From: Tannerella sp.
Lineage (GTDB): Bacteria > Bacteroidota > Bacteroidia > Bacteroidales > Tannerellaceae
Direction: 5' to 3'
NCBI GenBank assembly: GCA_031288935.1
Contig: JAITQL010000040.1
Location: 1 to 13,694, forward strand
DNA length: 13,694 bases
In this document: positions 1 to 13,694 of the stretch, one piece after another
How the letters are laid out: the number at the start of each line of letters is the position of its first letter
How positions within the stretch are numbered: the first letter of the stretch is position 1
Made by a program: the position numbers and the translations under genes
Notes under the pieces: generated by a model
The model's database searches: none
Told to the model about the DNA's origin: nothing
What the model saw: the letters and a program-made list of their open reading frames with translations, nothing else

Positions 1-30
1 GAATCTTTGAATTTTTGAATCTTTGAATTT
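1..30. repeat. GATTCAA-type tandem repeat at the 3' end of the esterase gene
   Basis: The 14-base unit GAATCTTTGAATTT occurs at 1-14 and exactly again at 17-30. The second copy runs into the esterase stop codon (29-31, minus strand). Read in the sense direction of that gene, the repeat carries ATTCAAAGATTC directly after the stop. The same core appears at 5648-5660 and 6988-6999, also at 3' ends of genes and on their sense strand. The function is unknown. Confidence 0.7.
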
Positions 31-910
31 ACTTCGCCTGGACGAATGTATCCGCCAGGATTTCCTGTAGCCAGGGGATGAATATTTCAGTCCATGCCGT
101 CGCATGTTTTTCGATGTGCTTGCAGTTGATGCCGAATCCGTGTCCTTTTTCATCGTACAGGGTGAAGGCGCAGGGCACCTGTTTGGCCGTCAGGGCCTGC
201 TGATAGCAGATGGCATTGCGGCAGTCCACCGTCCGGTCGCGGCGGCAGTGAATGAGAAAGACGGGAGGCATGTCCTGCCGGACGTTCTGTTCGAGCGACA
301 TCCGGTGTCGGAGATCCTCCGTGTAATGCCTGCCCAGCAGGTTGCGGCGCGACTTTTTGTGCACAATACTGTCCGTCATGGAAACTACGGGATAAATCAT
401 CGCGACAAAAGCGGGACGCAGGGAGACGCGCGTTTGAATACCGGCCGATTCCAGGTAATCGGTCTCAAAATAAGTGGCTGCCGTTCCGGCGAGATGTCCT
501 CCGGCCGAAAAACCCATCACGCCGACTTTCTCCGGCACAACGCCCCTGTCCGCGTAGTCTTCCCGGACGATTTGAATCGCTCTTTGCAGGTCTTGAATCA
601 TCGCCGGGTAGCGGTTTCCGTACATCCCGACGCGGTAGCGGAGCACGAATGCCGAAATCCCGTTCTCCTGCAACCATTTTGCCACGCGGTGGCCTTCACC
701 GTTCATGCCCAGGTAACAGTAACTTCCGCCCGGACAGATGATGACGGCCACTCCGGTCGAGTTCTCGCCGGCGATGTAGGCAGTCATTTCCGTCCGTTTC
801 ATTTTTCGGTCCCGGGGTTTGTCACCCCAAAGCTTGACGGTTTGCGCAGGCAGGCAAGTAAAGATCATACATGCAAATCCGAAACATAAAATCGTTCTCT
901 TCAAATTCAT
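29..910 (-). CDS. secreted alpha/beta-hydrolase (esterase/lipase family)
   Basis: This encodes a 293-residue serine hydrolase, probably a carbohydrate or small-ester esterase acting in the periplasm. The N-terminus (MNLKRTILCFGF onward) is a signal peptide with a likely cut after residue 22 (LPA/Q). Visible family parts are the oxyanion-loop motif CPGGSY (59-64), the nucleophile elbow GFSAGG with Ser135, an acid in HCRRD (Asp225), and the catalytic His257 in GHGFG. The order and spacing fit the acetyl-esterase/BD-FAE-like branch that many Bacteroidales use in polysaccharide de-esterification, and the length is normal. The substrate cannot be read from the sequence, and no CAZyme or SusCD gene is visible nearby. 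The start is ATG at 910. A -7 box lies about 120 bases upstream (1028-1035), so the gene probably has its own promoter. The family assignment is firm; the exact esterase type is inference. Confidence 0.9.
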   Translation of the reverse strand: MNLKRTILCFGFACMIFTCLPAQTVKLWGDKPRDRKMKRTEMTAYIAGENSTGVAVIICPGGSYCYLGMNGEGHRVAKWLQENGISAFVLRYRVGMYGNRYPAMIQDLQRAIQIVREDYADRGVVPEKVGVMGFSAGGHLAGTAATYFETDYLESAGIQTRVSLRPAFVAMIYPVVSMTDSIVHKKSRRNLLGRHYTEDLRHRMSLEQNVRQDMPPVFLIHCRRDRTVDCRNAICYQQALTAKQVPCAFTLYDEKGHGFGINCKHIEKHATAWTEIFIPWLQEILADTFVQAK

Positions 911-1027
911 AACGTCTTATTATTTGTTCTGTTTTACGTAAAAGAAGGGGCGCTTCTTCAACATTCAAATCTCAGGCCAAGGCCTTCCCGACCGGCGATA
1001 TTTTTTTCAGGCCGGCAAAAAACGGCG

Positions 1028-1057
1028 CAAATATAGTATAATTTTCGGGGCCGCAAA
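1028..1057 (-). promoter_or_regulatory. predicted Bacteroidota promoter for the esterase gene
   Basis: The minus strand reads TATATTTG at 1035-1028, a perfect TAnnTTTG -7 box. A TTTG -33 element lies at 1057-1054, giving 18 bases between the elements. The resulting leader to the ATG at 910 would be about 110 bases. In that leader, a short AAGAAG/CTTCTT hairpin (942-958) is visible but weak. Confidence 0.6.
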
Positions 1058-1078
1058 AATTAAACGGGCCAAGCCGGA

Positions 1079-1129
1079 TTCAATCCGGCAGGCAATCCTT
1101 TCATACGTGAAAAGCCTGCCGGGATTGAA
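1079..1129. repeat. long inverted repeat (hairpin) between the HIT gene and the esterase gene
   Basis: The left arm 1079-1093 (TTCAATCCGGCAGGC) pairs with 1114-1129 over 15 base pairs with one bulged G (1123). Inside the 20-base loop a second stem, TTTCA/TGAAA (1099-1103 with 1108-1112), closes on TACG. It lies about 70-120 bases downstream of the HIT stop and just upstream of the esterase promoter. No run of T follows immediately on either strand, so it is not a standard intrinsic terminator. It may end or stabilise the greA-HIT transcript. The rest of 911-1200 holds only the promoter above and no gene. Confidence 0.6.
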
Positions 1130-1200
1130 GTTGTCCGTATCTCCTCCCGGGCGGAAAGAACCGCAAGGCCGGGGACGGAAAGCGTCTGGAAAAATAGATG

Positions 1201-1596
1201 CTAAATGAATTTTTCGCGGATTTTTGCTGCCGTTTGGGCCAATTCCTCCGGCGTTTTTTTCAGTTTCGGGTTGCCGAAAAAGAGGTCGGATTCTTTTTGC
1301 AGGGGTACCAGGTGGATGTGTGCATGAGGAACTTCCAGTCCGATAACGGTCAGTCCGATGCGTTTGCAGGGAATGGCCTGTGCCAGGGCGCGGGCAATGG
1401 TTTTGGAAAACGCCATCATGCGCCCTAACGCACCGTCGTCCAGATCGAACAGATAGTCGACTTCTTTTTTGGGAATAACCAGCGTATGTCCCTCGGCGAC
1501 CGGATTGATATCCAGGAAGGCGAAAAACTCTTCATTTTCCGCGATGCGGTGGGACGGAATTTCGCCTGCCGCAATTTTACCGAACAGAGTAGCCAT
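1201..1596 (-). CDS. HIT-family (histidine triad) nucleotide-binding protein
   Basis: This is a 131-residue cytosolic protein of the HIT superfamily, Hint-like branch, whose members hydrolyse nucleoside phosphoramidates or related nucleotide conjugates. The signature HAHIHLVP is at 91-98, giving the triad His91, His93 and His95, with His93 in the nucleophile position. The N-terminal part (FGKIAAGEIPSHRI, and DINPVAEGHTLVIPKK around 29-44) is typical of bacterial Hint proteins, and the length is normal. The ATG is 10 bases after the greA stop, so the gene is almost certainly the second gene of a greA operon. The physiological substrate is unknown. Confidence 0.93.
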   Translation of the reverse strand: MATLFGKIAAGEIPSHRIAENEEFFAFLDINPVAEGHTLVIPKKEVDYLFDLDDGALGRMMAFSKTIARALAQAIPCKRIGLTVIGLEVPHAHIHLVPLQKESDLFFGNPKLKKTPEELAQTAAKIREKFI

Positions 1597-1606
1597 GACT
1601 TTACGT

Positions 1607-2077
1607 TTAAATGGATATTTCCAGAATCTCGAACTTGACCACTCCCGACGGCACCTGGATTTCGACCGCGTCGCCTACTTTTTTTCCCATCAGTCCCCTG
1701 GCAATCGGCGTGCTTACCGCGATCTTGTATTCTTTCAGGTTGGCCTCCGAGTCGGAAACCAGCGAATACGTCATGGTGACATTATTCTGGAGATTTTTGA
1801 TTTTTACCTTGTTCATGATCTGAACAACCTCCGTTTGAATCCGTGCTTCGTCAATCAAACGAGCGTTTGAAAGGATATTTTTCAACTGGGCAATTTTCCC
1901 CTCGAGAAGACCCTGCGCCTCTTTGGCCGCATCGTATTCCGCATTTTCAGACAGATCGCCCTTGTCTCTTGCTTCTGCAATCTGGGCAGAAATCTCGGGA
2001 CGTTTCACGCTTTCCAGATAATTAATCTCCGCCAATAATTTGTTATAGCCATCTCCAGTCATGTATGTAACAGCCAT
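1607..2077 (-). CDS. greA: transcription elongation factor GreA
   Basis: GreA rescues backtracked RNA polymerase by stimulating cleavage of the nascent RNA 3' end. The 156-residue protein has the normal length. The N-terminal coiled-coil hairpin runs to about residue 75 and carries the tip motif GDLSENAEY, with Asp41 and Glu44 at the same positions as the catalytic acidic pair in E. coli GreA. The C-terminal FKBP-like domain contains the typical SPIARGLMGKKVGD-like stretch near 122-137. The ATG at 2077 is fixed by a strong AAGGAGGA ribosome binding site (2085-2092), unusual for this phylum. The leader contains an intrinsic terminator (2106-2149) downstream of the predicted promoter. The HIT gene follows after 10 bases. 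Confidence 0.97.
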   Translation of the reverse strand: MAVTYMTGDGYNKLLAEINYLESVKRPEISAQIAEARDKGDLSENAEYDAAKEAQGLLEGKIAQLKNILSNARLIDEARIQTEVVQIMNKVKIKNLQNNVTMTYSLVSDSEANLKEYKIAVSTPIARGLMGKKVGDAVEIQVPSGVVKFEILEISI

Positions 2078-2084
2078 CTTATAT

Positions 2085-2092
2085 TCCTCCTT
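2085..2092 (-). promoter_or_regulatory. strong Shine-Dalgarno site of greA
   Basis: The minus strand reads AAGGAGGA at 2092-2085, seven bases before the greA ATG. Most other starts in this window have no such site, so this one stands out and fixes the start codon. Confidence 0.8.
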
Positions 2093-2105
2093 GTTTTTTG
2101 GTTCT

Positions 2106-2149
2106 AAAAATAAAAAAAGAATCCCGGCTAAATGACTTGACCGGAATCC
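2106..2149 (-). terminator. intrinsic terminator in the greA leader (possible attenuator)
   Basis: On the minus strand, GGATTCCGG (2149-2141) can pair with CCGGGATTC (2127-2119) to form nine pairs, two of them G-U, with a 13-base loop. Seven T follow directly (2118-2112), then A and five more T. The predicted greA promoter lies upstream of this structure and the ribosome binding site lies downstream. It could also end transcripts from the thioredoxin-like gene, whose stop is about 100 bases upstream, but then greA would need a promoter between 2111 and 2093, and no TAnnTTTG box is present there. Confidence 0.65.
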
Positions 2150-2181
2150 ATATCTGCTAAATTCATTATAATAAATCGTCG

Positions 2182-2213
2182 CAAAGATAATTCTTATTTT
2201 ACGATCCGGGAAA
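2182..2213 (-). promoter_or_regulatory. predicted promoter of the greA-HIT operon
   Basis: The minus strand reads TATCTTTG at 2189-2182, a perfect TAnnTTTG -7 box. A partial -33 element, TTTC, lies at 2213-2210, 20 bases away. A GGAAATTTCC palindrome (2209-2218) overlaps the -33 region and could be an operator. The leader to the ATG at 2077 would be about 100 bases. Confidence 0.6.
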
Positions 2214-2244
2214 TTTCCGGGAATGCTTTACAACATAATTTTCC

Positions 2245-3396
2245 TCACAATACCGCCTGCACTTCCCTTTCAAGACTGTTTATATCATCCACCCGTTTCA
2301 CCAGATTTCCGCTCTTGTTCAGGATAAAAATCGCCGGCAGTTGCTTTACATTATATAACGCAGCTGCCTGTGAATAGACCGACTGGGGGTCGTGCACGCA
2401 TGTCCACGGCAAATCGGAAACGATATTTTTCCACAGGTGCGTGTCGCCGTCCAACGATACTTGATAGATTTCCACCCCCTGCGCATGATAATTGACATAC
2501 ATCCGGTTTAGCGCCGTATTCAGTTCGGCCGACCATTCCGACTGATACACCGTGAAGTTCAGCACTACGGCCTTATCTCTGGCCACGTCGGAAAGTTTTA
2601 TCTTTTCGCCCTGGAGATTGGGCAATTCGACATCCAGAAGACTGACTTCCCTGGCTATTTTGTCCAAATCAATCGCGCGTTCGCTCCGAAGCACTTTCAA
2701 AGACTGCAGCGCGAGATTGTATAAATGCCTGGCGCGCGGACTTTCCGGATAAAAATGGTTGTAACTGGTAGCTACCGCACCGTAGGCGCGCGAATCGCTC
2801 TTGTCGTACAAATCAAAAAACATCAATCCGTCGATCTGCTGAAAAAGGGCGAAATAGGAAACCGTAGACATCGGCTGCGCGTAGATATATTTCAACGCAA
2901 TTTCCTTATACGCATTAACTACGTTCAATACCTGACGTTGATAAAGGGTATCGGAGATGATGCCCGTTTCATACTCCTTGCGCAAACGCTTGATTGCCTG
3001 ATTGGCGTCCAGTTGAGCCAATGTGACTTCCTTGAAGGCGGTTGCAGCGTCCGAACCCTCCACCGTATACGAAGTAGCAAACGTACCTGCGTCGGCCGTG
3101 AACGTAAGGGTTTCCGTCGAATCCACGGCAAAATTAATCAGTTGATTATTCAAACGGAGATGATAAAAATCCGGATAATCCGGACGTGGATGCTTGAACA
3201 CGAACTTCCCGGAAGTATTCAGTCTGGCCGAATCCAGCGTCACAACCGACGAAAGGCTTACATTTTCCAGATAGACGGTTTGTCCATCCGCACCGGCTAC
3301 AATACCGGTTACCACAAATTCAGGCGACGGATTGCATGCCATCACCACCCCAAAACCGTAAACAACGGCTAAAAAACGATACATTCTATTTTTCAT
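2245..3396 (-). CDS. lipoprotein with thioredoxin-like (TlpA/AhpC-TSA type) domain lacking the CXXC motif
   Basis: This encodes 383 residues. I start at ATG 3396 (MKNRMYRF), not at an in-frame ATG at 3426, because the later start gives a clean lipoprotein signal ending VMAC (lipidated Cys21) and because the promoter -7 box (3424-3431) covers the earlier ATG. The N-terminal part (about 27-115) resembles the DUF4369 beta domain often fused to thioredoxin folds in Bacteroidales. A helical middle (about 120-250) follows, then a thioredoxin-like domain (about 255-383) with a retained cis-proline (QLPAIFIL, Pro354). Where a redox protein would have WCxxC there is VLNFTVYQSEWSAEL (278-292) without cysteine, so disulfide chemistry is unlikely. 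It is probably a periplasm-facing binding or scaffold protein; I cannot name its partner. Confidence 0.85.
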   Translation of the reverse strand: MKNRMYRFLAVVYGFGVVMACNPSPEFVVTGIVAGADGQTVYLENVSLSSVVTLDSARLNTSGKFVFKHPRPDYPDFYHLRLNNQLINFAVDSTETLTFTADAGTFATSYTVEGSDAATAFKEVTLAQLDANQAIKRLRKEYETGIISDTLYQRQVLNVVNAYKEIALKYIYAQPMSTVSYFALFQQIDGLMFFDLYDKSDSRAYGAVATSYNHFYPESPRARHLYNLALQSLKVLRSERAIDLDKIAREVSLLDVELPNLQGEKIKLSDVARDKAVVLNFTVYQSEWSAELNTALNRMYVNYHAQGVEIYQVSLDGDTHLWKNIVSDLPWTCVHDPQSVYSQAAALYNVKQLPAIFILNKSGNLVKRVDDINSLEREVQAVL

Positions 3397-3423
3397 ACAA
3401 AGAAAATTTACTCTTTTGCGCTG

Positions 3424-3454
3424 CAAATGTACGTTATTTTATATTGGGTAAAAA
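3424..3454 (-). promoter_or_regulatory. predicted promoter of the thioredoxin-like lipoprotein gene
   Basis: The minus strand reads TACATTTG at 3431-3424, a perfect -7 box. An A/T-rich stretch (TTTT at 3454-3451) sits at -33 distance. Transcription would start about 22 bases before the ATG at 3396. It faces away from the kdsD promoter, and the two share the A-rich block 3450-3460. Confidence 0.55.
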
Positions 3455-3474
3455 AAAATAATCCACTACATTTG
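3443..3474 (+). promoter_or_regulatory. predicted promoter of the kdsD-pfkB operon, probably leaderless
   Basis: TACATTTG at 3467-3474 is a perfect -7 box. ATTG at 3443-3446 is a 3-of-4 match to the -33 element, with 20 bases between. The expected transcription start is at about 3478-3481, on or next to the ATG at 3480, so the mRNA would have almost no leader. Confidence 0.6.
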
Positions 3475-3479
3475 CATCC

Positions 3480-4094
3480 ATGAATGAAATTAATATCAAA
3501 TCAATCTTGGAACAAGAAGCTGATGCAGTACGTAACATCCCGTTTGGCGCCGTGTATGAGACTGCAATAGAGCTGATTGTTAAGCACGTCCACCGCTTGG
3601 GTGGCACGTTGGTAATTAGCGGTATGGGAAAAGCAGGTCAGATCGCCATGAACATTGCGACCACGTTCAGTTCGACCGGCACGCCGGCCTGTTTCCTGCA
3701 TCCGAGTGAAGCACAGCACGGCGATTTGGGGATTATTCGCAAACATGATCTGATGTTGCTGATCTCCAATTCCGGGAAAACGCGCGAATTGGTCGAACTG
3801 GTTCAACTGGCGCGCGTTTTGGTGGAAGACATGCCGTATATTGTCATTACTGCCAATCCTGACAGTCCGCTGGCCAGGGAAGCTGCCGTATGTCTGCTCA
3901 CCGGCGCCCCCAAAGAAGTGTGTCCGTTGGGTTTGACGCCTACGACGTCTACCACCGTTATGACCGTCATTGGCGATTTACTGGTCGTCAGCGTGATGCA
4001 GCGAATCGGATTTACCAGCTCCGATTATGCCAAACGTCACCACGGCGGTTATCTGGGTTCGAAAAGTCGCGAACAAAGTAAAAACGAACAATAA
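3480..4094 (+). CDS. kdsD: single-domain SIS sugar isomerase, KpsF/GutQ/KdsD family (arabinose-5-phosphate isomerase)
   Basis: This 204-residue cytosolic SIS-fold protein probably interconverts ribulose-5-phosphate and arabinose-5-phosphate, the first step to KDO for lipopolysaccharide or capsule. Visible motifs are SGMGKAGQIA with Lys51 (48-56), HPSEAQHGDLG (74-84), SNSGKTRE (96-103), KEVCPLGLTPTTSTT (145-159) with Glu146, and the C-terminal HHGGYLG (187-193). The paired CBS domains of the E. coli enzymes (about 320 residues) are absent. Single-domain forms are known in Bacteroides, including a structurally determined B. fragilis protein that I recall as very similar. The promoter suggests a leaderless mRNA. 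The next gene starts 11 bases after the stop. The family is firm; the exact sugar phosphate is inferred. Confidence 0.9.
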   Translation: MNEINIKSILEQEADAVRNIPFGAVYETAIELIVKHVHRLGGTLVISGMGKAGQIAMNIATTFSSTGTPACFLHPSEAQHGDLGIIRKHDLMLLISNSGKTRELVELVQLARVLVEDMPYIVITANPDSPLAREAAVCLLTGAPKEVCPLGLTPTTSTTVMTVIGDLLVVSVMQRIGFTSSDYAKRHHGGYLGSKSREQSKNEQ

Positions 4095-4105
4095 GAGAGA
4101 ATTTT

Positions 4106-5032
4106 ATGAGGAAAGTAATTGGAATAGGAGAAACGCTTCTGGACATTATTTTTAAGGGGAATCAACCGCGCATTGCGATTCCCGGCGGATCAACGTTTAA
4201 CAGTATGGTTTCGTTGAGCCGTTCAGGTATCCCCGTTTCCTTCATCAGCGAGTTGGGCAACGACCGCGTGGGGGAAATGACACGCCGGTTCATGCACGAG
4301 AACGGGATGACAACCGACTATATAGACGCCTGTCCGGACGGGAAAACCTCCGTCTCGCTGGCGTTTCTGGGTGAAGGGAACGATGCCGAATACCTTTTCT
4401 ACACCGGCAGCCCCAACCAGCGGTCAGACATTGCCTATCCGCCGGTGGATGAAAATGACATTTTCATCTTCGGCTCGTTCTACGCGCTCAATCCGCTCAT
4501 CCATCCGCGGATTTTGGAACTGCTGGAATACGTTCGCAAGCGGAAGGCGATTATCTATTATGACCCGAACTTCCGAAAGATGCACGCACACGACGCGATC
4601 CGCGTTCGTCCAACGGTGATGGACAATTACGAGTTTGCCCACATTGTCAGAGGTTCGGACGAAGATTTCCTCCACTTGTATGCTCAGACGGATATGGATA
4701 AAGTCTATCGCGACGAAGTCCATTTTTACTGCAAGAATCTGATTACTACGCATGGTGCAGGCGGCGTCAATCTTTTTACGGAAAAGTCCCGTATCCATTT
4801 TGATGTGCCTGCCATCACGCCGGTCAGTACCATAGGGGCGGGTGACAATTTCAATGCCGGGGTGATCTACGGACTTGTCAAATACGGTGTCGGCTATCAG
4901 GACTTGCCCGAACTGGATGAAGAAACCTGGAAGAAGATCATTCATTGCGGGATAAAATTCTCCACTGAAGTTTGTCGGAATTATGAAAATCACATTTCGA
5001 CCGGCTTCGCAGAGAACCTCCTGCAGATGTAG
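4106..5032 (+). CDS. PfkB-family carbohydrate kinase
   Basis: This is a 308-residue ribokinase/fructokinase-fold kinase that phosphorylates a sugar or nucleoside with ATP. The N-terminal sugar-binding signature PGGSTFN is at 26-32, GNDRVG at 51-56, YYDPNFR at 151-157, and the C-terminal PfkB signature STIGAGDNFNAG at 241-252, with catalytic-base Asp247 and the GAGD anion hole. The length is normal. It lies 11 bases downstream of the isomerase gene and very likely shares its transcript. The pairing suggests a substrate linked to pentose phosphate or KDO metabolism, but the substrate cannot be read from the motifs. GAGAGAATTTT before the ATG is a weak ribosome binding site. Confidence 0.92.
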   Translation: MRKVIGIGETLLDIIFKGNQPRIAIPGGSTFNSMVSLSRSGIPVSFISELGNDRVGEMTRRFMHENGMTTDYIDACPDGKTSVSLAFLGEGNDAEYLFYTGSPNQRSDIAYPPVDENDIFIFGSFYALNPLIHPRILELLEYVRKRKAIIYYDPNFRKMHAHDAIRVRPTVMDNYEFAHIVRGSDEDFLHLYAQTDMDKVYRDEVHFYCKNLITTHGAGGVNLFTEKSRIHFDVPAITPVSTIGAGDNFNAGVIYGLVKYGVGYQDLPELDEETWKKIIHCGIKFSTEVCRNYENHISTGFAENLLQM

Positions 5033-5065
5033 AAGAGAGTTCAACGTTTTTAATCTGCCGTCACA

Positions 5066-5719
5066 ATGAACCCGCCACCCAGCGTTCCGCTTTCCGTTCC
5101 GGGCGGCGCAACGGAGATATTGCTTCATGCCTGTTGCGCTCCGTGTTCCGGAGCGGTCGTCGAATGTATGCTGGAAAACCGGCTGCATCCGACGGTGTTT
5201 TATTTCAATCCCAACATCTGTCCGCAGGCAGAATACGAACGGCGCAAAGCCGAAAACATCCGTTATGTCGAAGCGCTGGGCTTGCCTTTTGTCGACGGGG
5301 ATTACGACCACGCTGCATGGCGCGGGCAGGTGCAGGGCTTGGAGCAGGAGCCGGAGCGGGGCGCACGGTGCAGGGTTTGTTTCGGGATACGGCTGACGGC
5401 TACGGCGCAATACGCCTTTGCGCACGGCTTCAGGGTATTTGCAACGACGCTGGCCTCCTCGCGCTGGAAAGACCTGCGGCAGATCACCGAAGCCGGCCGC
5501 GAAGCCGCCGCACAGTTTCCCGGTCTTGTGTTCTGGGAACAGAACTGGCGCAAAGGCGGACTGAGCGAACGACGCAACGCGCTGGTCAAAGAACATGGCT
5601 TTTATAATCAAACCTACTGCGGGTGCGAGTTTGGGCAGCGCGTAAAAGATTCAAGGATTCGTCGGAGTTTGCCGGAGCGGTCAAATCCGCATCCGGACGG
5701 ATGCGGAATGATGCAATAA
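5066..5719 (+). CDS. queH: epoxyqueuosine reductase QueH
   Basis: QueH reduces epoxyqueuosine to queuosine in tRNA, the last step of queuosine synthesis, and replaces QueG in many bacteria. The 217-residue protein shows the family cysteines: Cys23, Cys24 and Cys27 in HACCAPCS, Cys102 and Cys105 in RCRVCFGIRL, and Cys185 and Cys187 in YCGC, consistent with an iron-sulfur site. NPNICPQAEYERR (48-60), TTLASSRWKD (127-136) and NWRKGG (160-165) also match. After YCGC the family usually ends soon; here about 30 arginine- and proline-rich residues follow, encoded by a GATTCAA repeat (5648-5660) and a perfect hairpin (5687-5706), so the tail looks acquired. It starts 33 bases after pfkB and is probably in the same operon. 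Confidence 0.93.
   Translation: MNPPPSVPLSVPGGATEILLHACCAPCSGAVVECMLENRLHPTVFYFNPNICPQAEYERRKAENIRYVEALGLPFVDGDYDHAAWRGQVQGLEQEPERGARCRVCFGIRLTATAQYAFAHGFRVFATTLASSRWKDLRQITEAGREAAAQFPGLVFWEQNWRKGGLSERRNALVKEHGFYNQTYCGCEFGQRVKDSRIRRSLPERSNPHPDGCGMMQ
5687..5706 (+). repeat. perfect GC-rich hairpin within the queH 3' end
   Basis: CCGCATCC (5687-5694) is exactly complementary to GGATGCGG (5699-5706), with a GGAC loop. It sits inside the last codons of queH, 11 bases before the stop. No T run follows, so it is not a standard terminator. It might protect the mRNA 3' end. Confidence 0.6.
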
Positions 5720-5871
5720 ACATTTCGGGTGCAAGATTGTTATATATGTGTAGAGTTTCTTTAGGCGGGACGGAGAATAAAAGGTACATTTACTCTCTTG
5801 ATCCTTACCCTGTCCTTTGCTGAATAAAGGGCATATAATGTAGTTATTTTGATAGTTATGTAATTCGAAAG

Positions 5872-5900
5872 AAAGGCAGGCCGTGAGGTTTGCCTTTTTT
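5872..5900 (+). terminator. intrinsic terminator downstream of queH
   Basis: AAAGGCA (5872-5878) pairs with TGCCTTT (5891-5897) around a 12-base loop, and the T run continues to 5900. It lies about 150 bases past the queH stop and would end the kdsD-pfkB-queH transcript or a small RNA encoded before it. Confidence 0.7.
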
Positions 5901-5997
5901 GCGATCACGGGACATGCGTTGACAGAGACGCGCGGCACACGAGAAATAAACATGCGCCGCATCGCGCTCTGTTTCCCGCTTTTCATCCGCAGGGAGG

Positions 5998-6027
5998 GTT
6001 GAAATTCAGGAAAAAAATGTACTTTTG
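5998..6027 (+). promoter_or_regulatory. predicted promoter of the prenyltransferase gene
   Basis: TACTTTTG at 6020-6027 is a perfect TAnnTTTG -7 box. GTTG at 5998-6001 is a 3-of-4 match to -33, with 18 bases between. Transcription would begin near 6032, about 12 bases before ATG 6044 or 27 before ATG 6059. Confidence 0.6.
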
Positions 6028-6043
6028 CCGCCTGTAACAAATC

Positions 6044-6964
6044 ATGATTGTAGACGAAATGAAACCGACTTTGAAACAATGGATACTTGCTTTCCGGCCG
6101 TGGTCGTTCCCGGCTTCGACGATGCCTGCACTGACGGCGCTGACGTTTGTCTTTTTTCAATATCACACGGGAGCCGTGTCCGGCGTGAACTGGATGAACG
6201 GCTGGCTGGCTCTGCCCGGGGTGCTGGCCTGCCATGCGGGGGGCAACCTGATCAGCGATTATTACGATTACCGTTACGGCGTAGACCGCAAGGAATCTTT
6301 CGGCTCAAGCCGCTTGCTGATCGAAGGCGTTTTCCGTCCGGTCACGATTCTGTGGTACGGATACCTGTTCCTGCTGGCCGGTGCGCTGACGGGTATTTAC
6401 CTGATGCTGCACAGTGGCGTGCATCTGCTCTGGATTGGCGTTGCCGGTATCACGGGATCGGTTTTTTACTACCGGTTGAAGTATCGCGCGCTGGGCGATC
6501 TGCTGATTTTTCTGATTTACGGCCTGCTGATTGCGTTGGGGACGGCCTATGTGATGACGTCGCAGCTGAATGTCCCCGTGTTGCTGCTGTCCATGCCGAC
6601 CGGTTTTCTGGTAGTCAATATCCTGCACGCCAACAATACGCGCGACATCCTGCACGACCGCCAGGCTCACATCAGGACGCAGGCCATGCTGCTGGGTTTG
6701 AAGGCCTCCAAGGTGCAATATGCCTTGCTGGCGCTGGGCAGCTATGTGGCGGTGGTTTTGCCGGTCATTTTCCGGGCAGTGCATCCGCTGTGTCTCTCAG
6801 TGCTTGTGACCTTGCCGCTGGCGTTTAAAAATATACGGCAGATGCGTACGGCGCAGATCGAACATCCGGAACGTATCAGGGATTTGGACGGCAAGTCGGC
6901 GCAACTGGTGCTGGCATTCGGTCTGCTGCTGATCATTTCCAACGTGCTGGCGGCATGGATATGA
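6044..6964 (+). CDS. menA: UbiA-family prenyltransferase, probably MenA (1,4-dihydroxy-2-naphthoate prenyltransferase)
   Basis: This 306-residue polytopic inner-membrane protein transfers a polyprenyl chain to an aromatic acceptor. Both Asp-rich, Mg-diphosphate-binding motifs of the superfamily are present: NLISDYYDYRYGVD (68-81; Asn68, Asp72, Asp75) and NNTRDILHDRQAHIRT (197-212; Asp201, Asp205). Hydrophobic segments alternate throughout, about eight to nine, as in UbiA proteins. The conserved N-terminal LKQWILAFRPWSFPAS stretch fits MenA-like members, and Bacteroidota respire with menaquinone, so MenA is the likely role. Another aromatic acceptor is not excluded. ATG 6059 (MKPTLKQW) is an equally good start. 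The next gene begins 61 bases after the stop. Confidence 0.8.
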   Translation: MIVDEMKPTLKQWILAFRPWSFPASTMPALTALTFVFFQYHTGAVSGVNWMNGWLALPGVLACHAGGNLISDYYDYRYGVDRKESFGSSRLLIEGVFRPVTILWYGYLFLLAGALTGIYLMLHSGVHLLWIGVAGITGSVFYYRLKYRALGDLLIFLIYGLLIALGTAYVMTSQLNVPVLLLSMPTGFLVVNILHANNTRDILHDRQAHIRTQAMLLGLKASKVQYALLALGSYVAVVLPVIFRAVHPLCLSVLVTLPLAFKNIRQMRTAQIEHPERIRDLDGKSAQLVLAFGLLLIISNVLAAWI

Positions 6965-7025
6965 AAAGTCAGGGATTCAACGGTCAGGATTCAAAGATTT
7001 TATTTTCAATTTTCAGTTTTTGACG
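6965..7025 (+). repeat. GATTCAA-type repeat after the prenyltransferase gene
   Basis: This 61-base spacer holds two similar units, GTCAGGGATTCAAC and GTCAGGATTCAAAG, followed by GATTTTATTTTCAATTTTC. The core GATTCAAAGATT (6988-6999) matches the repeats at 1-30 (inverted) and 5648-5660. Confidence 0.5.
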
Positions 7026-7661
7026 ATGCAACGGAAGGATAAAAGCGACGGTTTGAAATGCACGCTGTCCGTACTGGTGGCTGCCGCGTGCTGGTTTGTG
7101 ATGTTTTCGCCGTGGACGGGCGGGCGGCTGAATTTCTGGTATGCGATGAGCGGTGCGGCCGTGATTTTATGCGCGGTGAGTGCATGGATGGGAGATGATT
7201 TCCGGAAACAGTTCCGGTGGTCGGTGAAAGATGTGGCGCTCGGTTTGCTGTCCGCTGCGGTTTTGTGGGGCGTTTTCCTTGCAGGGGACATTTTTTCGTC
7301 ACTGCTCTTTGACTTTGCCCGTCCGCAGGTAAATCTGATCTACCGGATGAAAGAAGGGGAAAGTCCCTTGCTGCTTGCTTTGCTGCTGTTGCTGTTGATT
7401 GGCCCGGCAGAGGAGATTTTCTGGCGCGGCTACGTGCAGCGCGTGCTGATAAGGAAGTACGGGGAATGGACAGCCCTGATCGCAACGACATTCATCTATG
7501 CGCTGGTGCATCTCTGGTCGTTCAATTTCATGCTTGTCATGGCCGCTGCCGTCTGCGGCGCTTACTGGGGACTGCTTTACCGTTACAACAAGAATTTAGT
7601 GATGCTTATCGTCTCTCATGCCGTGTGGGACGTGGCGGTTTTTATCCTCTTCCCGCTGTGA
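7026..7661 (+). CDS. CPBP-family intramembrane glutamic endopeptidase (Abi/CAAX-protease-like)
   Basis: This is a 211-residue membrane protein of the CPBP (Rce1/Abi) family of intramembrane proteases. The three family motifs are visible: EE followed by R in PAEEIFWRGY (Glu129, Glu130, Arg134), motif 2 His162 in YALVHLWSF, and motif 3 SHAVWD with His198 and Asp202. About six hydrophobic segments surround them. Members cleave prenylated or hydrophobic peptides, or act in bacteriocin immunity; the substrate here is unknown. I use ATG 7026; a TTG at 7020 in the same frame is less likely. Placement behind a prenyltransferase gene suggests co-transcription but does not prove a shared pathway. Confidence 0.9.
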   Translation: MQRKDKSDGLKCTLSVLVAAACWFVMFSPWTGGRLNFWYAMSGAAVILCAVSAWMGDDFRKQFRWSVKDVALGLLSAAVLWGVFLAGDIFSSLLFDFARPQVNLIYRMKEGESPLLLALLLLLLIGPAEEIFWRGYVQRVLIRKYGEWTALIATTFIYALVHLWSFNFMLVMAAAVCGAYWGLLYRYNKNLVMLIVSHAVWDVAVFILFPL

Positions 7662-7928: not shown

Positions 7929-8024
7929 CAGGCCATATGTAAAATAGCGCTTTTTGGAATAACGCCCCTCTGCCTGGAGCAATGGCATGTCCTTACCGTG
8001 TTTGCAGGCAGTTGAAGTATATGG

Positions 8025-8038
8025 TAAAACCGGTTTTA
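8025..8038. promoter_or_regulatory. perfect 14-base palindrome, candidate operator before the efflux genes
   Basis: TAAAACCGGTTTTA is fully self-complementary and lies 11 bases before the adaptor ATG at 8050. Palindromes of this kind are often sites for dimeric repressors such as TetR or MarR proteins, but no regulator gene is visible in the window. Confidence 0.4.
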
Positions 8039-8049
8039 AAGATATAAGT

Positions 8050-9159
8050 ATGAAAAGTATATACGTAGCAGGAGCAGCGTTGACGCTGCTCGCAATGATT
8101 TCTTGCGGAAAACAGCCAAACAGAACGAACAGCGCTGCTCCGCCAAAGTATCCTACCACCGTTGTCGCCACCGGCGCTACGGAATTGGCCGCCCTCTATC
8201 CGGTCACGATTCACGGGCGGGAAGACATCGAAATCCGTCCGCGGATCGACGGATTCATTGAAAACATTTACATCGACGAAGGCTCGGCGGTGAAGCAGGG
8301 ACAGGTTCTGTTCAAAATCAACTCGCCGCAGGCCGAACAGGCCGTCACGACCGCCCGCGCGGCCGTCACCGCAGCCGAAGCGCAGCTGGCCACGGCCAAA
8401 CTGAATGTTGACCGCATGACGCCCCTGGCCGAAAAAGGCATCATCAGTTCCGTGCAGCTGGAATCCTACCGCAATGCGTACAGCGCCGCCGAGGCTGCTC
8501 ACGCACAGGCTGCGGCGCAACTGAAAAATGCGGAGGCGACCCTGTCGTGGACATCCGTTACCAGTCCCGTCAACGGCTATGTCGGCGCCGTCGCCTACCG
8601 GAAGGGCAGTCTGGTGAACAGCCAGAACGTGCTGACTACCGTGGCGAATACGACTACGATCTTCGCTTATTTTTCGCTGAACGAGAAAGCGCTGTCCGAG
8701 TTTCTGGGACGCCTTGAAGGTCAAACGCAGGCCGAGAAACTGAAACACGCGCCGGAAATCACCCTCACCCTGGCGGATGGAAGCGTCTATCCGTATAAAG
8801 GCAAGATAGAAACCATCGCCGGCGTGGTGAACATCTCGACCGGAAGCGCCAACTTCCGCGCGGAGTTTCCCAACGAAGAAGGCATCCTGCGCAGCGGCAC
8901 GAGCGGGAAAATTGCCATTCCAACGACGTATACCGACGTGATTTTAATCCCCCAGAAATCTACTTTTGCCCAGCAGGACAAGGTGCTGGTCTATGTAGTC
9001 GGTGAAGACGGCGCGGCGACGCAACGCATCATCACGGTTACGCCGACGCCAGACGGCCAGACGTATATCGTGCACAGCGGCCTGAACGCGGGCGAACGCA
9101 TCGTTTCCGGAGGCGTGGCGACGATGGCCAACGGCACCAAAATCAGTTTCGACCATTAA
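8050..9159 (+). CDS. RND efflux periplasmic adaptor lipoprotein (membrane fusion protein, AcrA/MexA type)
   Basis: This adaptor joins the inner-membrane pump to the outer-membrane channel of a tripartite efflux system. It has 369 residues from ATG 8050. I prefer that start to an in-frame ATG at 7987 because it places a lipoprotein signal at the N-terminus, ending AMISC with lipidated Cys19. HlyD-type layout follows: first lipoyl half (about 60-93, REDIEIRPRIDGFIENIY then EGSAVKQGQVLFKI), an alanine-rich alpha-helical hairpin (about 95-165), second lipoyl half (about 167-197, TSPVNGYVGAVAYRKGSLV), then beta-barrel and membrane-proximal domains. The fused pump/channel gene starts 21 bases after the stop. 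Confidence 0.95.
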   Translation: MKSIYVAGAALTLLAMISCGKQPNRTNSAAPPKYPTTVVATGATELAALYPVTIHGREDIEIRPRIDGFIENIYIDEGSAVKQGQVLFKINSPQAEQAVTTARAAVTAAEAQLATAKLNVDRMTPLAEKGIISSVQLESYRNAYSAAEAAHAQAAAQLKNAEATLSWTSVTSPVNGYVGAVAYRKGSLVNSQNVLTTVANTTTIFAYFSLNEKALSEFLGRLEGQTQAEKLKHAPEITLTLADGSVYPYKGKIETIAGVVNISTGSANFRAEFPNEEGILRSGTSGKIAIPTTYTDVILIPQKSTFAQQDKVLVYVVGEDGAATQRIITVTPTPDGQTYIVHSGLNAGERIVSGGVATMANGTKISFDH

Positions 9160-9180: not shown

Positions 9181-12100
9181 ATGTTAAAGACATTCATTGA
9201 CCGGCCGGTCTTGTCGACGGTCATTTCCATCCTGATCGTGGTATTGGGGATCATCGGGCTGTTCCTGTTGCCGGTAGAGCAGTATCCCGACATCGCGCCG
9301 CCCACCGTCCGCGTATCGGCCACCTATCCGGGCGCGAACGCCGACGTGGTGATGAACGCCGTCGTGATTCCGCTCGAAGAACAAATCAACGGCGTCGAGG
9401 GCATGACGTACATGACCTCGTCGGCCTCGAACACCGGCAGCGCGACGATCACCGTCTTCTTCGAGAAAGGCATCAATCCCGACATTGCCGCGGTGAACGT
9501 GCAGAACCAGGTGGCGCGCGCCACGCCGCTGCTGCCGCAGGAAGTGACGCAGATCGGCGTCACCGTCCGCAAGCAGCAAAGTTCCACTATCCTGATGATA
9601 AACATTACTTCGGATAACCTGGACTACAACCAGACGTTTCTCCAGAATTACGCCAACATCCACCTCCTGCCGCCCATCAAGCGGGTGAAGGGCGTGGGAG
9701 ACGCCAACGTGTACGGCGCCCGCGACTATTCGATGCGCGTCTGGCTGAAGCCGGACGTGATGGCGGCCTACAGGATCACGCCGCAGGAAGTCATCGCCGC
9801 CCTGCAGGAACAAAACATCGAAGCGGCTCCCGGCGAACTGGGGCAGGAGAGCCGGCAGAGTTTTCAGTTCACGCTGAAGTTTACGGGGCGGCTGAAGTCC
9901 GCGCCCGAGTTTGAACAGATCGTCGTGCGGTCGGTCGACGGGCAGATTCTTCGTCTGCGCGACGTGGCGCAAGTGGAACTCGGCGCGCTCAACTACAACG
10001 TCGTTTCGCGCCTGAACGGAAACCAGTCCGTCACCATCGGCATCAACCAGACGGCCGGCTCCAATGCGCAGGAGGTGATCAACAACATCAAGGCCGTGCT
10101 GAAGGAGGCCGAAGTTTCCTTCCCGCCCGGCATGGAGGTGGTATACGTGCAGGATGCCAATGAATTTCTGGACGCATCCATCGAAAAGGTCGTGCATACC
10201 TTGCTGGAAGCCTTCATCCTGGTGTTTATCGTGGTGCTTGTCTTCCTGCAGAATTTCCGTTCGACGCTGATTCCGGCCATTGCCGTGCCGGTAGCCATCG
10301 TAGGGACGTTTTTCTTCCTGCAACTGTTCGGCTTCTCGGTGAACCTGCTGACGCTGTTCGCGCTAGTGCTGGCCATCGGGATTGTCGTGGACGATGCGAT
10401 CGTCGTCGTGGAGGCCGTCCACGCGCAGCTCGACGCGGGCGTAGCCAATGCCCGCGAAGCCGCCCTCAACGCGATGAAGGAAATCGCGCCGGCCATTGTC
10501 TCCATCACGCTCGTGATGTCGGCCGTGTTCGTACCCGTCAGTTTCATCGGAGGCACGTCCGGCGTCTTTTACAAGCAGTTCGGATTGACGCTCGCCATTT
10601 CGATTCTGCTCTCTGCCGTCAACGCGCTTACGTTAAGCCCCGCGTTGTGCGCGCTTTTCCTGAAAGGACACCGGGGCGACCGGCGGAAAGGCTTTTTCAA
10701 CCGCCTCGCGTTTATGTTCAACACCGTCTTCCAGTCGGCCACCGACCGCTACGAGAAAGCGCTGCATTTCCTGGGCAGGCGCGGCCACCGCTGGATCACG
10801 GTGACGCTTCTGCTCGTCATGACGGGGATTCTGTTCAGCCTGATGCGCATCATCCCCACCGGATTCGTGCCGCAGGAAGACAGCGGCGGCGTGATGGGAA
10901 TGGTTACGATGGCGCCGGGCGCGTCGCTGGAGCGTACGCACGAAGTGCTCAGGCAGGTGGCTGACGTGGCGAAACAGATCGAGCACGTGCAGTACGTTTC
11001 CGACCTTGCAGGCGTGAACTTCATGAGCGGAGTGGGGAGTTCATACGCCACGATTCAGATCAAGATGGATCCCTGGAATCAGCGCGACATCACGACCAAT
11101 CAGGTGGCCGCCATCCTGAAGGAAAAGACGGCGGAGATCAAGGACGCCACCTTCATCTTCATGGGAACGCCCACGTTGCAGGGCTTCGGCCTGAGCAACG
11201 GCGTGGAATTGCAGATGCAGGATCGCACGGGCGGAGACATCAACCTCTTTTTCGACATCACCAACCAGTTTCTGGCCGCCATGCGGGAACGTCCGGAGGT
11301 CATGATGGCCATGACGACCTTCAATCCCAATTTCCCCCAGAAGATGATCGAAGCCAACATCGCCAAGATCAAGGAAGCCGGGCTGACGCTCGGCCAGGTG
11401 ATGACGACGCTGCAGGCGTATGTGGGGAGCATGTATGTGTCGAACTTCAACGTCTACGGCAAGCAGTTCCGCGTCATGGTACAGGCGGCGCCGGAGTATC
11501 GCGAGAAGCTGGAAGACCTGGAGGGCTACTTCGTGCGCACGGAGTCGGGCGAGATGGCGCCGGTGACGGAGTTCCTCACGATTACGGACGTCACCGCGCC
11601 GCAGACGCTAAGCCGTTTCAACATGTATTCGTCGATGAGCGTCACGATCATCCCCAACTTCCTCGACGGCTACGCTACCGGCGACGCCCTCAAAGCCGTT
11701 ACGGAAGTGGCGGCGCAGGTGTTGCCGGACAATTTCACCTACGACTATTCCGGCATGACGCGCGAGGAGGTGAAGAGCGGCGGACAGACCTACCTCATCT
11801 TCGCGCTTTGCCTGATCTTCGTCTACCTGCTGCTGGCCGCGCTCTACGAGAGCTACCTCCTGCCGCTGGCCGTTATCTGCTCGCTGCCCGTGGGGCTGGC
11901 CGGCGTCTTCATCTTCATCTTCGGCGGCATGGCGATGGGTACGGGGATCGTGAACAACATCTACGTACAGATTTCGCTGATCATGCTGATCGGCCTGCTG
12001 GCCAAGAATGCGATTCTGATCGTCGAATACGCCGTGCAGCGCCGCAAGCAGGGCATGAGCATCGTCGAGTCGGCGGTGCGTGGCGCCGTGGCGCGGTTGC

Positions 12101-13694
12101 GGCCGATTCTTATGACCTCGTTCGCGCTGATCTTCGGATTGCTGCCGCTGGCGCTGGCATCGGGCGCCGGCGCAATCGGGAACCGTTCCATCGGTATTTC
12201 GGCCATCGGCGGCATGTTGATCGGAACGCTGCTCGGCGTGCTCGTCATCCCCTCGCTCTTCATCATCTTCCAGAACATCCAGGAGAAATTCACGAAGTCG
12301 GGATGGACCAATGCGAGCAAGGTGATCGCTGTCGGCGTGCTGTTTTCCGTCGGAATGTCATCCTGCGGAACGGTAAACAGGTACAGCGCGCCGGAAGTCG
12401 ACACGGCCGGCCTGTACCGCGACGCGGCGCATGAAACGGATACCGCGACGGTGGCCGCGATTCCCTGGTCGTCGTATTTCACCGACCCCGACCTGCAAAA
12501 GCTGATTGCGGAGGGCTTGCAGGAGAATTTTGACCTCCGGACGGCGCTGTGGCGGATCCGGGAAGCCGAAGCCGGACTGCAGGTTGCCCGTGCGGCGTAT
12601 TTCCCTGTCGCCGGACTGGTCGGGCAGGCTACGCATACGCGGACAAGCGGCAGTGACGGCAGCGACATCCTGGGATACGGCAGCAACCGGTTTCAACTCG
12701 GCATTGCGGTGCAGTGGGAACTGGACGTGTGGGGCAAACTCAACCGGCAGTCCCGCGCGCGGTATGCGCAATTCCTGAACAGCGTTGAATACAGGCGGCT
12801 GATACAGACGACGCTCGTGTCTACCGTCGCAACGTCCTACTATACGCTGCTGGCGCTGGACGAACAGCTGCGCATCACGCGCGGGACGATCGGTCTGCTG
12901 GCGGAAAGCGCCGAGTCGATGCAGTCCATGATGGATGCCGGTCTGCTGAACGCCGCGGCCGTGGAGCAGAGCCGCGCCCTGCTGCACGCCACGCAGGTAT
13001 CCGCGCTCACGCTGGAACAGTCCATCCGCAAGCTGGAGAATGTATTGTCGGTAACGGTCGGCCGTAAACCCGGCTCCATCGAGCGGCAGTCGTTTGCGAC
13101 GTGGACGGCGCCCGCCTCCCTGCCTCACGGCGTGCCGGCGCAGATGCTGGCCTTGCGCCCCGACGTGCGGGCGGCGGAACTGCAATTCCGCGCGGCCTTT
13201 GAATTGCGCCGCGCAGCGCAGGTGTCGCTTTATCCCTCCCTCACCCTCAACTCGGGCACGATGGCAGGATATGGCGCGACGACGCTGGCGGATTTCTTCA
13301 AGCCCGAAAATCTGCTGGCCAACCTCATCGGCGGACTGACGCAACCGCTCTTTGCAGGCAACCAGCTCCGGGCGCAGGTCGTCATCACCAAAGCGCAGGA
13401 GCAGGAGGCGCTTGTCAACTTCCAGAAAACGGTGCTCACCGCAGCCCGCGAAGTTTCCGACGTGCTTTTCACCTATGAGAAGGCATTGGAGAAGACCGGC
13501 CACCGCAATGCCCAGATCGCAGCGCTGGAAAAATCGGTAGACTACACGCAGGAACTGCTCAAGGCAGGCGAGGCGACGTATCTGGAAGTCCTCACCGCAC
13601 AGCAGAATTACCTCGGCGCACGGCTGGCGACCGTCAGCGATCAGCTGGAAAAAGCCCAGGCCGTGATCGACCTCTACCGCGTACTGGGCGGAGG
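9181..13694 (+). CDS. RND (HAE-1/AcrB-type) efflux pump fused to NodT/OprM-type outer-membrane channel; 3' end beyond window
   Basis: One open frame of 1504 codons without a stop. Residues 1 to about 1040 form a complete AcrB-type pump: MLKTFIDRPVLSTVISILIV as TM1, two periplasmic loops, and the proton relay of Asp404 and Asp405 in GIVVDDAIVVVE, Lys942 in GLLAKNAILIVEYA and Arg974 in RLRPILMTS. After SLFIIFQNIQEKFTKS the frame runs into a lipoprotein-type signal (about 1047-1061) and Cys1062, then an OprM-like channel: YSAPEV, IPWSSYFTDPDLQKLI, LRTALWRIREAEAGLQVARA, WELDVWGKL, LRPDVRAAE, SLYPSLTLNSG, QPLFAGNQLRAQV, YLEVLTAQQNYL and LYRVLGGG. The last motif is normally within a few to some tens of residues of the family's C-terminus. 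The two parts are usually separate genes. Pump function is clear; substrates (drugs, bile salts, other amphiphiles) are inferred from the HAE-1 type. Confidence 0.93.
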   Translation, partial: MLKTFIDRPVLSTVISILIVVLGIIGLFLLPVEQYPDIAPPTVRVSATYPGANADVVMNAVVIPLEEQINGVEGMTYMTSSASNTGSATITVFFEKGINPDIAAVNVQNQVARATPLLPQEVTQIGVTVRKQQSSTILMINITSDNLDYNQTFLQNYANIHLLPPIKRVKGVGDANVYGARDYSMRVWLKPDVMAAYRITPQEVIAALQEQNIEAAPGELGQESRQSFQFTLKFTGRLKSAPEFEQIVVRSVDGQILRLRDVAQVELGALNYNVVSRLNGNQSVTIGINQTAGSNAQEVINNIKAVLKEAEVSFPPGMEVVYVQDANEFLDASIEKVVHTLLEAFILVFIVVLVFLQNFRSTLIPAIAVPVAIVGTFFFLQLFGFSVNLLTLFALVLAIGIVVDDAIVVVEAVHAQLDAGVANAREAALNAMKEIAPAIVSITLVMSAVFVPVSFIGGTSGVFYKQFGLTLAISILLSAVNALTLSPALCALFLKGHRGDRRKGFFNRLAFMFNTVFQSATDRYEKALHFLGRRGHRWITVTLLLVMTGILFSLMRIIPTGFVPQEDSGGVMGMVTMAPGASLERTHEVLRQVADVAKQIEHVQYVSDLAGVNFMSGVGSSYATIQIKMDPWNQRDITTNQVAAILKEKTAEIKDATFIFMGTPTLQGFGLSNGVELQMQDRTGGDINLFFDITNQFLAAMRERPEVMMAMTTFNPNFPQKMIEANIAKIKEAGLTLGQVMTTLQAYVGSMYVSNFNVYGKQFRVMVQAAPEYREKLEDLEGYFVRTESGEMAPVTEFLTITDVTAPQTLSRFNMYSSMSVTIIPNFLDGYATGDALKAVTEVAAQVLPDNFTYDYSGMTREEVKSGGQTYLIFALCLIFVYLLLAALYESYLLPLAVICSLPVGLAGVFIFIFGGMAMGTGIVNNIYVQISLIMLIGLLAKNAILIVEYAVQRRKQGMSIVESAVRGAVARLRPILMTSFALIFGLLPLALASGAGAIGNRSIGISAIGGMLIGTLLGVLVIPSLFIIFQNIQEKFTKSGWTNASKVIAVGVLFSVGMSSCGTVNRYSAPEVDTAGLYRDAAHETDTATVAAIPWSSYFTDPDLQKLIAEGLQENFDLRTALWRIREAEAGLQVARAAYFPVAGLVGQATHTRTSGSDGSDILGYGSNRFQLGIAVQWELDVWGKLNRQSRARYAQFLNSVEYRRLIQTTLVSTVATSYYTLLALDEQLRITRGTIGLLAESAESMQSMMDAGLLNAAAVEQSRALLHATQVSALTLEQSIRKLENVLSVTVGRKPGSIERQSFATWTAPASLPHGVPAQMLALRPDVRAAELQFRAAFELRRAAQVSLYPSLTLNSGTMAGYGATTLADFFKPENLLANLIGGLTQPLFAGNQLRAQVVITKAQEQEALVNFQKTVLTAAREVSDVLFTYEKALEKTGHRNAQIAALEKSVDYTQELLKAGEATYLEVLTAQQNYLGARLATVSDQLEKAQAVIDLYRVLGG
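12319..12366 (+). other. internal lipoprotein signal peptide and lipobox at the pump/channel junction
   Basis: Codons 1047-1062 read K-VIAVGVLFSVGMSS-C, followed by GTVNRY. This is a basic residue, a hydrophobic stretch of about 14 residues and a lipobox-like MSSC followed by Gly, as at the start of NodT/OprM lipoproteins. The AcrB-type pump ends in the cytoplasm, so this segment would cross the membrane in the orientation of a signal peptide. No in-frame ATG lies at a position that would give a separate channel gene a full signal: the nearest are GTG 12328 and ATG 12355. Confidence 0.75.

Follow-up and report, generated by a model that had tools for sequence, protein, structure and literature searches.

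Results

An RND pump and an outer-membrane channel in one reading frame

The stretch of DNA analysed here (the window) is a whole contig, C42, of 13,694 bases, from a draft assembly of 1.85 Mb in 264 contigs with a completeness of 55.66%. Its first part (29-7661) encodes a BD-FAE-type esterase, a HIT protein, GreA, a DUF4369/thioredoxin-like protein, a KpsF-like isomerase (SIS), a PfkB kinase, QueH, a MenA-like prenyltransferase and a CPBP (Rce1-like) membrane protease. The remainder carries an adaptor gene and, starting 21 bases after it, a long gene that is stop-free from its ATG to the end of the window (Table 1). The stop codon of this gene lies beyond the contig end; in relatives with longer contigs, the corresponding frame stops approximately 1-10 codons past the same Gly-Gly.

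Table 1. Features of the efflux locus, in window coordinates
Feature	Position	Strand	Basis or remark
Periplasmic adaptor (AcrA/MexA type), third part of the tripartite pump	7987..9159	+	TIGR01730 RND_mfp 237.1 bits, cut-off 94.9; HlyD_D23
Fused pump-channel gene	9181..13694	+	1504 codons visible (9181-13692), ATG start, open at contig end
HAE-1 RND pump half, residues 1-1030, 12 hydrophobic segments	9181..12270	+	ACR_tran, TIGR00915, hydropathy, structure matches
Short loop after last pump helix, residues 1032-1047, predicted cytoplasmic; n-region of the predicted internal signal peptide	12274..12321	+	
13th hydrophobic segment and lipobox residues before Cys, residues 1048-1061, VIAVGVLFSVGMSS; predicted internal lipoprotein signal peptide	12322..12363	+	
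Cys1062 codon, predicted lipidation site; predicted LspA cut just before	12364..12366	+	
NodT/OprM-type outer-membrane channel half, few residues short of its end	12364..13694	+	TIGR01845, OprM matches

The two halves were placed by profiles and by sequence matches to solved structures. On the pump side, ACR_tran matched residues 1-1030 (profile 1-1020 of 1021, E 5.9e-303) and the HAE-1 RND permease model TIGR00915 scored 1034.7 bits against a cut-off of 940.35 (profile 1-1034 of 1050); the metal-type (HME) model TIGR00914 scored 336.5 bits, below its cut-off of 701.45. Twelve hydrophobic segments precede residue 1031, the last at 1013-1029 (hydropathy, with overlapping peaks merged by eye), and D404, D405, K942 and T979, which by their roles in AcrB would be proton-relay residues, are invariant in 31 aligned fusions. 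The best solved pump relative by sequence is CmeB, with MexB and AcrB further down. On the channel side, TIGR01845 (outer_NodT) matched residues 1054-1504 with 246.8 bits, above its cut-off of 210.05, over profile positions 2-459 of 460. The best solved channel relative is OprM (E 3.5e-45 for 6zre and 1.6e-44 for 1wp1). In a comparison whose query began at Ser1061, so that query residue 2 aligned to chain residue 1, Cys1062 fell on residue 1 of the OprM chains 6zre, 1wp1 and 7akz. The N-terminal Cys of OprM carries lipid, according to one study (PMC4486845).

Antisense to the channel half, a 444-codon open frame occupies 12358-13692 on the minus strand. It is probably a by-product of codon use.

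A single gene is thus confirmed to encode a complete HAE-1 RND pump followed by a NodT/OprM lipoprotein channel that is nearly complete. The initial annotation had read the locus in the same way, as a single stop-free frame from pump to channel with both halves complete, and both its reading of the frame and its pairing of an HAE-1 pump with a lipoprotein channel were borne out by the 1504-codon frame, the fused relatives described below, scores above curated cut-offs for both halves and the presence of a lipobox. As in AcrAB-TolC and MexAB-OprM, an adaptor is encoded upstream of an HAE-1 pump and, in the window, an OprM-type lipoprotein channel; in contrast to those systems, in which pump and channel are two genes, the window has one gene with a predicted internal lipoprotein signal peptide.

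The fusion recurs in related genomes

Across 61 genomes searched, and among the matches listed, a stop-free match across the junction was found in 16 of the 37 genomes of the genus, the source included. A full-length fused frame without a stop is present in 13 other genus genomes at 79-84% identity, and in G028 the stop-free junction match lies in a locus cut by both contig ends. The other 21 genus genomes, many of which are incomplete, gave no fused match among the matches listed; in G022 and G033, re-translation showed the nearest gene to be unfused. G306, from another family, is also fused, with 73% identity over the last 524 residues. A scan of wider genome contigs yielded nine loci, comprising a fused gene in L063 (Tannerella sp.), separate genes in L064, L065 (Dysgonomonas) and L066 (Hydrotalea), and five remaining loci at which the script saw the pump alone. 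We use the word fused only for re-translated frames; several reported frames of ~1520 proved, on re-translation, to consist of two genes separated by a single stop. Re-translation of 22 distinct fused loci revealed no stop at the junction, and no homopolymer of 5 or more bases occurs in 12241-12420. In G018 (C90; loci L017/L090), an in-frame insertion of ~20 codons lies near pump residue 505 and introduces no stop.

Because 16 of the 37 genus genomes have a stop-free fused junction, the fusion is no assembly error, and an artefact of assembly or a frameshift was ruled out by these relatives. The finding that the initial annotation had named as fatal to it, separate genes in all close relatives, is likewise not what the genus contains.

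A predicted lipoprotein signal peptide lies between the two halves

The initial annotation described the halves as joined with almost no linker. This part of the description did not hold, as a 13th hydrophobic segment and a lipobox sit between them. The segment appears as a hydropathy peak at 1048-1064 and closes with the lipobox SKVIAVGVLFSVGMSS-C, i.e. MSS-Cys1062. This MSSC motif behind a hydrophobic run agrees with the lipoprotein signal, with a Cys at the mature N-terminus, that is expected of a NodT/OprM channel, and lipidation of the Cys is predicted. With a conserved internal signal peptide of this kind between two complete proteins, the gene has the build of a polyprotein, the cleavage of which we infer.

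A database search for single chains joining pump and channel, which the initial annotation had proposed, gathered 150 fused proteins. The window's channel part found 31 proteins; the channel of one of them, P0032, matched 139 long chains, and all of the 120 listed contained both Pfam domains. These searches covered chains longer than ~820 residues, scored on the channel part alone, among the 7998-8000 candidates sharing most words. The resulting alignment of 151 sequences consists of the window protein and the 150 database fusions (31 plus 120 listed, with P0032 in both); it includes contig fragments, for example P0021, P0023 and P0062, and also P0005, which was left out of the 31-protein alignment.

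The Cys column is C in 151/151 aligned fusions, and residue -1 is Gly in 94, Ser in 35 and Ala in 22. The alignment program may favour placing Cys on Cys, a bias from which the -1 rule is free. Asp at +2 occurs in 0/151. The junction core has a median 12-residue Kyte-Doolittle mean of 2.36 (lowest 0.62), and the net charge of the n-region is zero or positive in 150/151. From P1024 to Y1068, Cys1062 is the sole column with a conservation of at least 95%, and over the 30 columns 1032-1061 the commonest residue averages 0.37.

Junction signal-peptide calls rest on hydropathy and motif rules. A lipoprotein-signal rule (Gly, Ala or Ser at -1, a hydrophobic core, and an n-region whose net charge is not negative) was passed by 150 of the 151 junction cysteines versus 19 of the 535 other cysteines of the same proteins; only this contrast counts, because the core threshold was set at the lowest junction value. 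When the proteins were clustered at 60% identity, the first member passed in 20 of the 21 groups. The rule is broken by P0025, whose n-region has a net charge of -2, and weak hydrophobic cores are found in P0090 and P0149. Part of this conservation of the signal is inheritance, because all of the fusions descend from channels that already bore it.

Purifying selection acts on both halves and is relaxed in the hydrophobic core

Both halves are under purifying selection: among the 17 window-family fusions compared, pN/pS was 0.159 in the pump part and 0.245 in the channel part. Across the junction the ratio is 0.299 in the loop (1032-1047) and rises to 0.658 in the core (1048-1058), the fastest-changing region, where residues are swapped while hydrophobicity stays. 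It falls to 0.160 in the lipobox (1059-1062), near the value for the pump, and is loose again in the tail past the Cys (0.413). Since the core, lipobox and tail are short (11, 4 and 33 codons), their values are rough. A functional lipoprotein signal would nevertheless be expected to give such a profile. The junction shows no drop in synonymous change in the 17 genes (pS 0.61-0.67 vs. 0.61 in the pump), and a hidden conserved DNA element in the junction was ruled out on this ground.

A proposed route from one chain to two proteins

We consider it highly probable, from the sequence evidence above, that the product is a polyprotein that LspA separates at Cys1062 into pump and channel. Pump and channel would be made as a single chain. 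As members of its family do, the pump half would insert with 12 helices and leave its C-terminus in the cytoplasm; the 13th hydrophobic segment would then insert into the membrane and act there as an internal signal peptide, with export of the channel half. Given the conserved lipobox, Lgt would lipidate Cys1062 and LspA would cut between Ser1061 and Cys1062. The pump would remain an inner-membrane protein, its C-terminus extended by the signal peptide as a 13th helix unless this stub were later removed, while the lipoprotein channel would pass to the outer membrane and rejoin the pump via the adaptor encoded just upstream. With the fusion, the two proteins would always be synthesized 1:1, matching their ratio in the 3:6:3 assembly. 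The topology of the 13th segment, lipidation, cleavage, sorting, the leftover helix and the benefit of a fixed ratio are all elements that we infer in this scheme.

The initial annotation had instead taken the working product to be one continuous protein, in which an inner-membrane pump would be covalently tethered to an outer-membrane channel. The 22 re-translated loci without a junction stop agree with a chain that stays whole, as does the fit of a 1:1 chain to the 3:6:3 assembly, as given in a study of reconstituted MexAB-OprM (PMC4754349). According to the same text, however, a distance of 23 nm separates the two membranes, and the pump does not touch the channel directly (PMC4754349). Because the hydrophobic segment and Cys1062 are adjacent, an uncut chain would require one spot to be in both membranes, yet these would be 23 nm from each other. 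Nor could the chain beyond the Cys bridge this gap if the Cys stayed at the inner membrane. At 0.36 nm per residue for a fully stretched chain, the 34 residues from the Cys to W1096 would reach ~12 nm here, and over the 151 fusions the same distance (25-59 residues) corresponds to 9-21 nm. An unused signal should, moreover, lose its Cys and the -1 rule, and both are kept in 151/151. We regard an undivided working chain as improbable; the lipoprotein signal peptide kept in 151 fusions points to separation. The claim that a single gene forces 1:1 production survives as 1:1 synthesis.

A second possibility is that an internal translation start within the junction yields the channel, either additionally or as its main source. 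Start codons (ATG, GTG or TTG) upstream of the last pre-core Lys/Arg do occur in 8 of the 17 window-family genes (ATG in three), a Met lies 13-33 residues before the Cys in 51 of the 151 fusions, and in the window codons 1048 and 1053 are GTG and codon 1059 is ATG, all inside the core. In the other 9 of the 17 genes, however, the window's included, there is no start codon from which a charged n-region would be retained, and in L014 all 31 codons from pump to Cys are free of start codons. The places of the start codons differ between genes, and as synonymous change is not lowered, no conserved start signal is visible. Internal initiation was rejected as a general route on this survey, a rejection that does not extend to every gene, and for the junction as a whole we give it little credence. 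An artefact or a decaying gene (a frameshift, a lost stop or a pseudogene), to which the fragmented, 55.66% complete draft and a gene reaching the contig end might have lent colour, has a negligible chance of being correct in view of the fusion in 16/37 genus genomes and in another family, the low pN/pS of both halves and 150 database proteins of the same build. We therefore return to separation by LspA as the preferred reading.

Fusions of other pump classes

As judged by profile matches, fusions of an HAE-type pump to a NodT channel are not confined to the lineage of the window. MdtC-like fusions (e.g. P0032 and P0095) share with it an RND multidrug pump, a NodT lipoprotein channel and a junction lipobox. 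The P0032 channel scores 423.7 bits for TIGR01845, and its pump is nearest to MdtC (NF007905, 1497.1 bits, below the cut-off of 1774). The six MdtC-like rows form a far branch of the pump tree and so represent a separate fusion. Named plasmids were considered as carriers of the MdtC-like fusion and rejected, as the best identity among at least 5000 records was always below 60%; of three candidates examined among the 25 listed, Granulicella has separate genes, and the Methylobacterium and Caballeronia records are unannotated at that place.

The CusA/CzcA-TolC fusions of Bacteroidota, which the initial annotation had mentioned, proved to be real and common. CusA/CzcA-type matches numbered 140 among those listed over 119 genomes of the class, 78 of them with reported frames of 1434-1504. 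On re-translation, 29 of the 30 loci examined were fused, and the unfused one (L124) was dropped. The source genome's own two CusA/CzcA-type matches are unfused by reported length (1027 and 1041). A single CusA/CzcA-type channel query, scored like those above against the 7998-8000 candidates sharing most words, matched at least 2463 long chains, of which the 120 listed were used.

In all of the 149 CusA/CzcA-TolC fusions examined, a hydrophobic run at the junction is followed by Ala-Gln (138) or Gly-Gln (11), with site picking that prefers Ala-Gln and in a set that holds near-copies, since L141, P0152 and P0153 do not differ in the part used as query. The same rule, run plus [A/G]-Gln, was satisfied by 114 of 2629 random windows elsewhere in those proteins. 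An [A/G/S]-Gln dipeptide alone is weak without the core, because it is present in 730 of the 2629. Gln at +1 of signal peptidase I sites is habitual in this phylum, and the CusA/CzcA-TolC junction looks like such a site. These fusions resemble the window gene in their pump-channel order in one frame, their length of ~1440-1500 residues and a predicted junction signal peptide, and differ from it in having a metal-type pump, a channel without a lipobox and a type I junction site; the window junction has the lipobox Cys and no [A/G]-Gln type I site. That the class of signal follows the class of channel supports processing rather than accident.

Repeated changes between separate and fused genes

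In the unfused relatives L029, L064, L075, L086 and L105-L110, the channel gene lies in the frame of the pump, with its first Met 3-45 bases past the pump stop. The share of unfused loci with this arrangement means nothing, because many were fetched for looking so. From such operons, a fusion can arise by the loss of one stop, with the signal peptide already in place.

A FastTree phylogeny of 73 pumps (31 fused) was built with duplicate, partial and masked loci left out and with 11 of the 150 database fusions, chosen for being fused. Given its starred branches, no fewer than six switches between the fused and the separate state are required, gains and losses being indistinguishable. The fused groups are those of the window, P0025, P0024, L073/L076/L077/L078, L074 and the MdtC-like proteins, and the lipobox is kept in each; P0024 resembles P0023, which is recorded as Puia sp. 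G015 carries two different fusions, L073 (C129) and L013 (C130), which are 38% and 81% identical to the window protein and belong to two separate fusion groups.

Near the window, 14 fused genus genes form one supported group on the pump tree. On the pump trees, the unfused L091 (G241:C3) may branch either outside or inside the wider fused group with L083 and P0022, a single fused group having a support of 8; on the channel tree, 16 fused rows fall on one side of a supported branch (98). The pump of L083 (G306:C125) groups with P0022 outside the genus, and its channel is placed within the genus, next to L006. One half of L083 may have undergone gene exchange or conversion.

Discussion

Taken as a set, the fusions lead us to a wider reading that we hold to be likely: RND pump-channel fusions would have arisen repeatedly and been tolerated each time via the signal peptide of their channel class (type II where the channel is a lipoprotein, type I where it is TolC-like), giving a self-resolving polyprotein and a pump with a 13th helix. 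If true, this would be a general and so far undescribed means of holding two proteins at a fixed ratio when each is bound for a different membrane, and the mechanism would be important far outside this one genome.

Signal-peptidase cleavage of polyproteins is well known in some viruses but, to our knowledge, hardly so in bacteria. FbcH, the cytochrome b/c1 precursor of Bradyrhizobium, is one case in which an inner-membrane protein and an exported protein are made as one precursor and split at an internal signal. FbcH differs in having a type I cut that releases two inner-membrane proteins in one membrane, with no lipoprotein and no role in efflux. Among the titles and abstracts listed from the open-access literature, we found no description of natural RND-channel fusions and none of a polyprotein split by LspA. 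Database entries for the fused proteins carry either the name of a single permease or automatic double names, e.g. 'hydrophobe/amphiphile efflux-1 (HAE1) family protein/NodT family efflux transporter outer membra...', and the double names indicate that annotation programs do recognize the domain architecture.

Should the cut be real, many ~1500-residue entries now filed in databases as single RND proteins would represent two mature proteins, with effects on annotation, structure prediction and proteomics, and a simple route would exist to 1:1 inner- and outer-membrane partners from one gene. Efflux would also be tied to lipoprotein processing, and a block of LspA should stop the separation of pump and channel. 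The source genome encodes Lgt (C258, 180.9 bits, over the cut-off) and has an LspA match on C169 with 48.6 bits, below the NCBIfam cut-off of 73.95. Among the 37 genus genomes, an LspA match is present in 34 and exceeds the cut-off in 1, so that it is below the cut-off or absent in 36. The LspA at G000:C169:7468-8013 matches the profile in two pieces, which suggests an insertion in the enzyme of this group.
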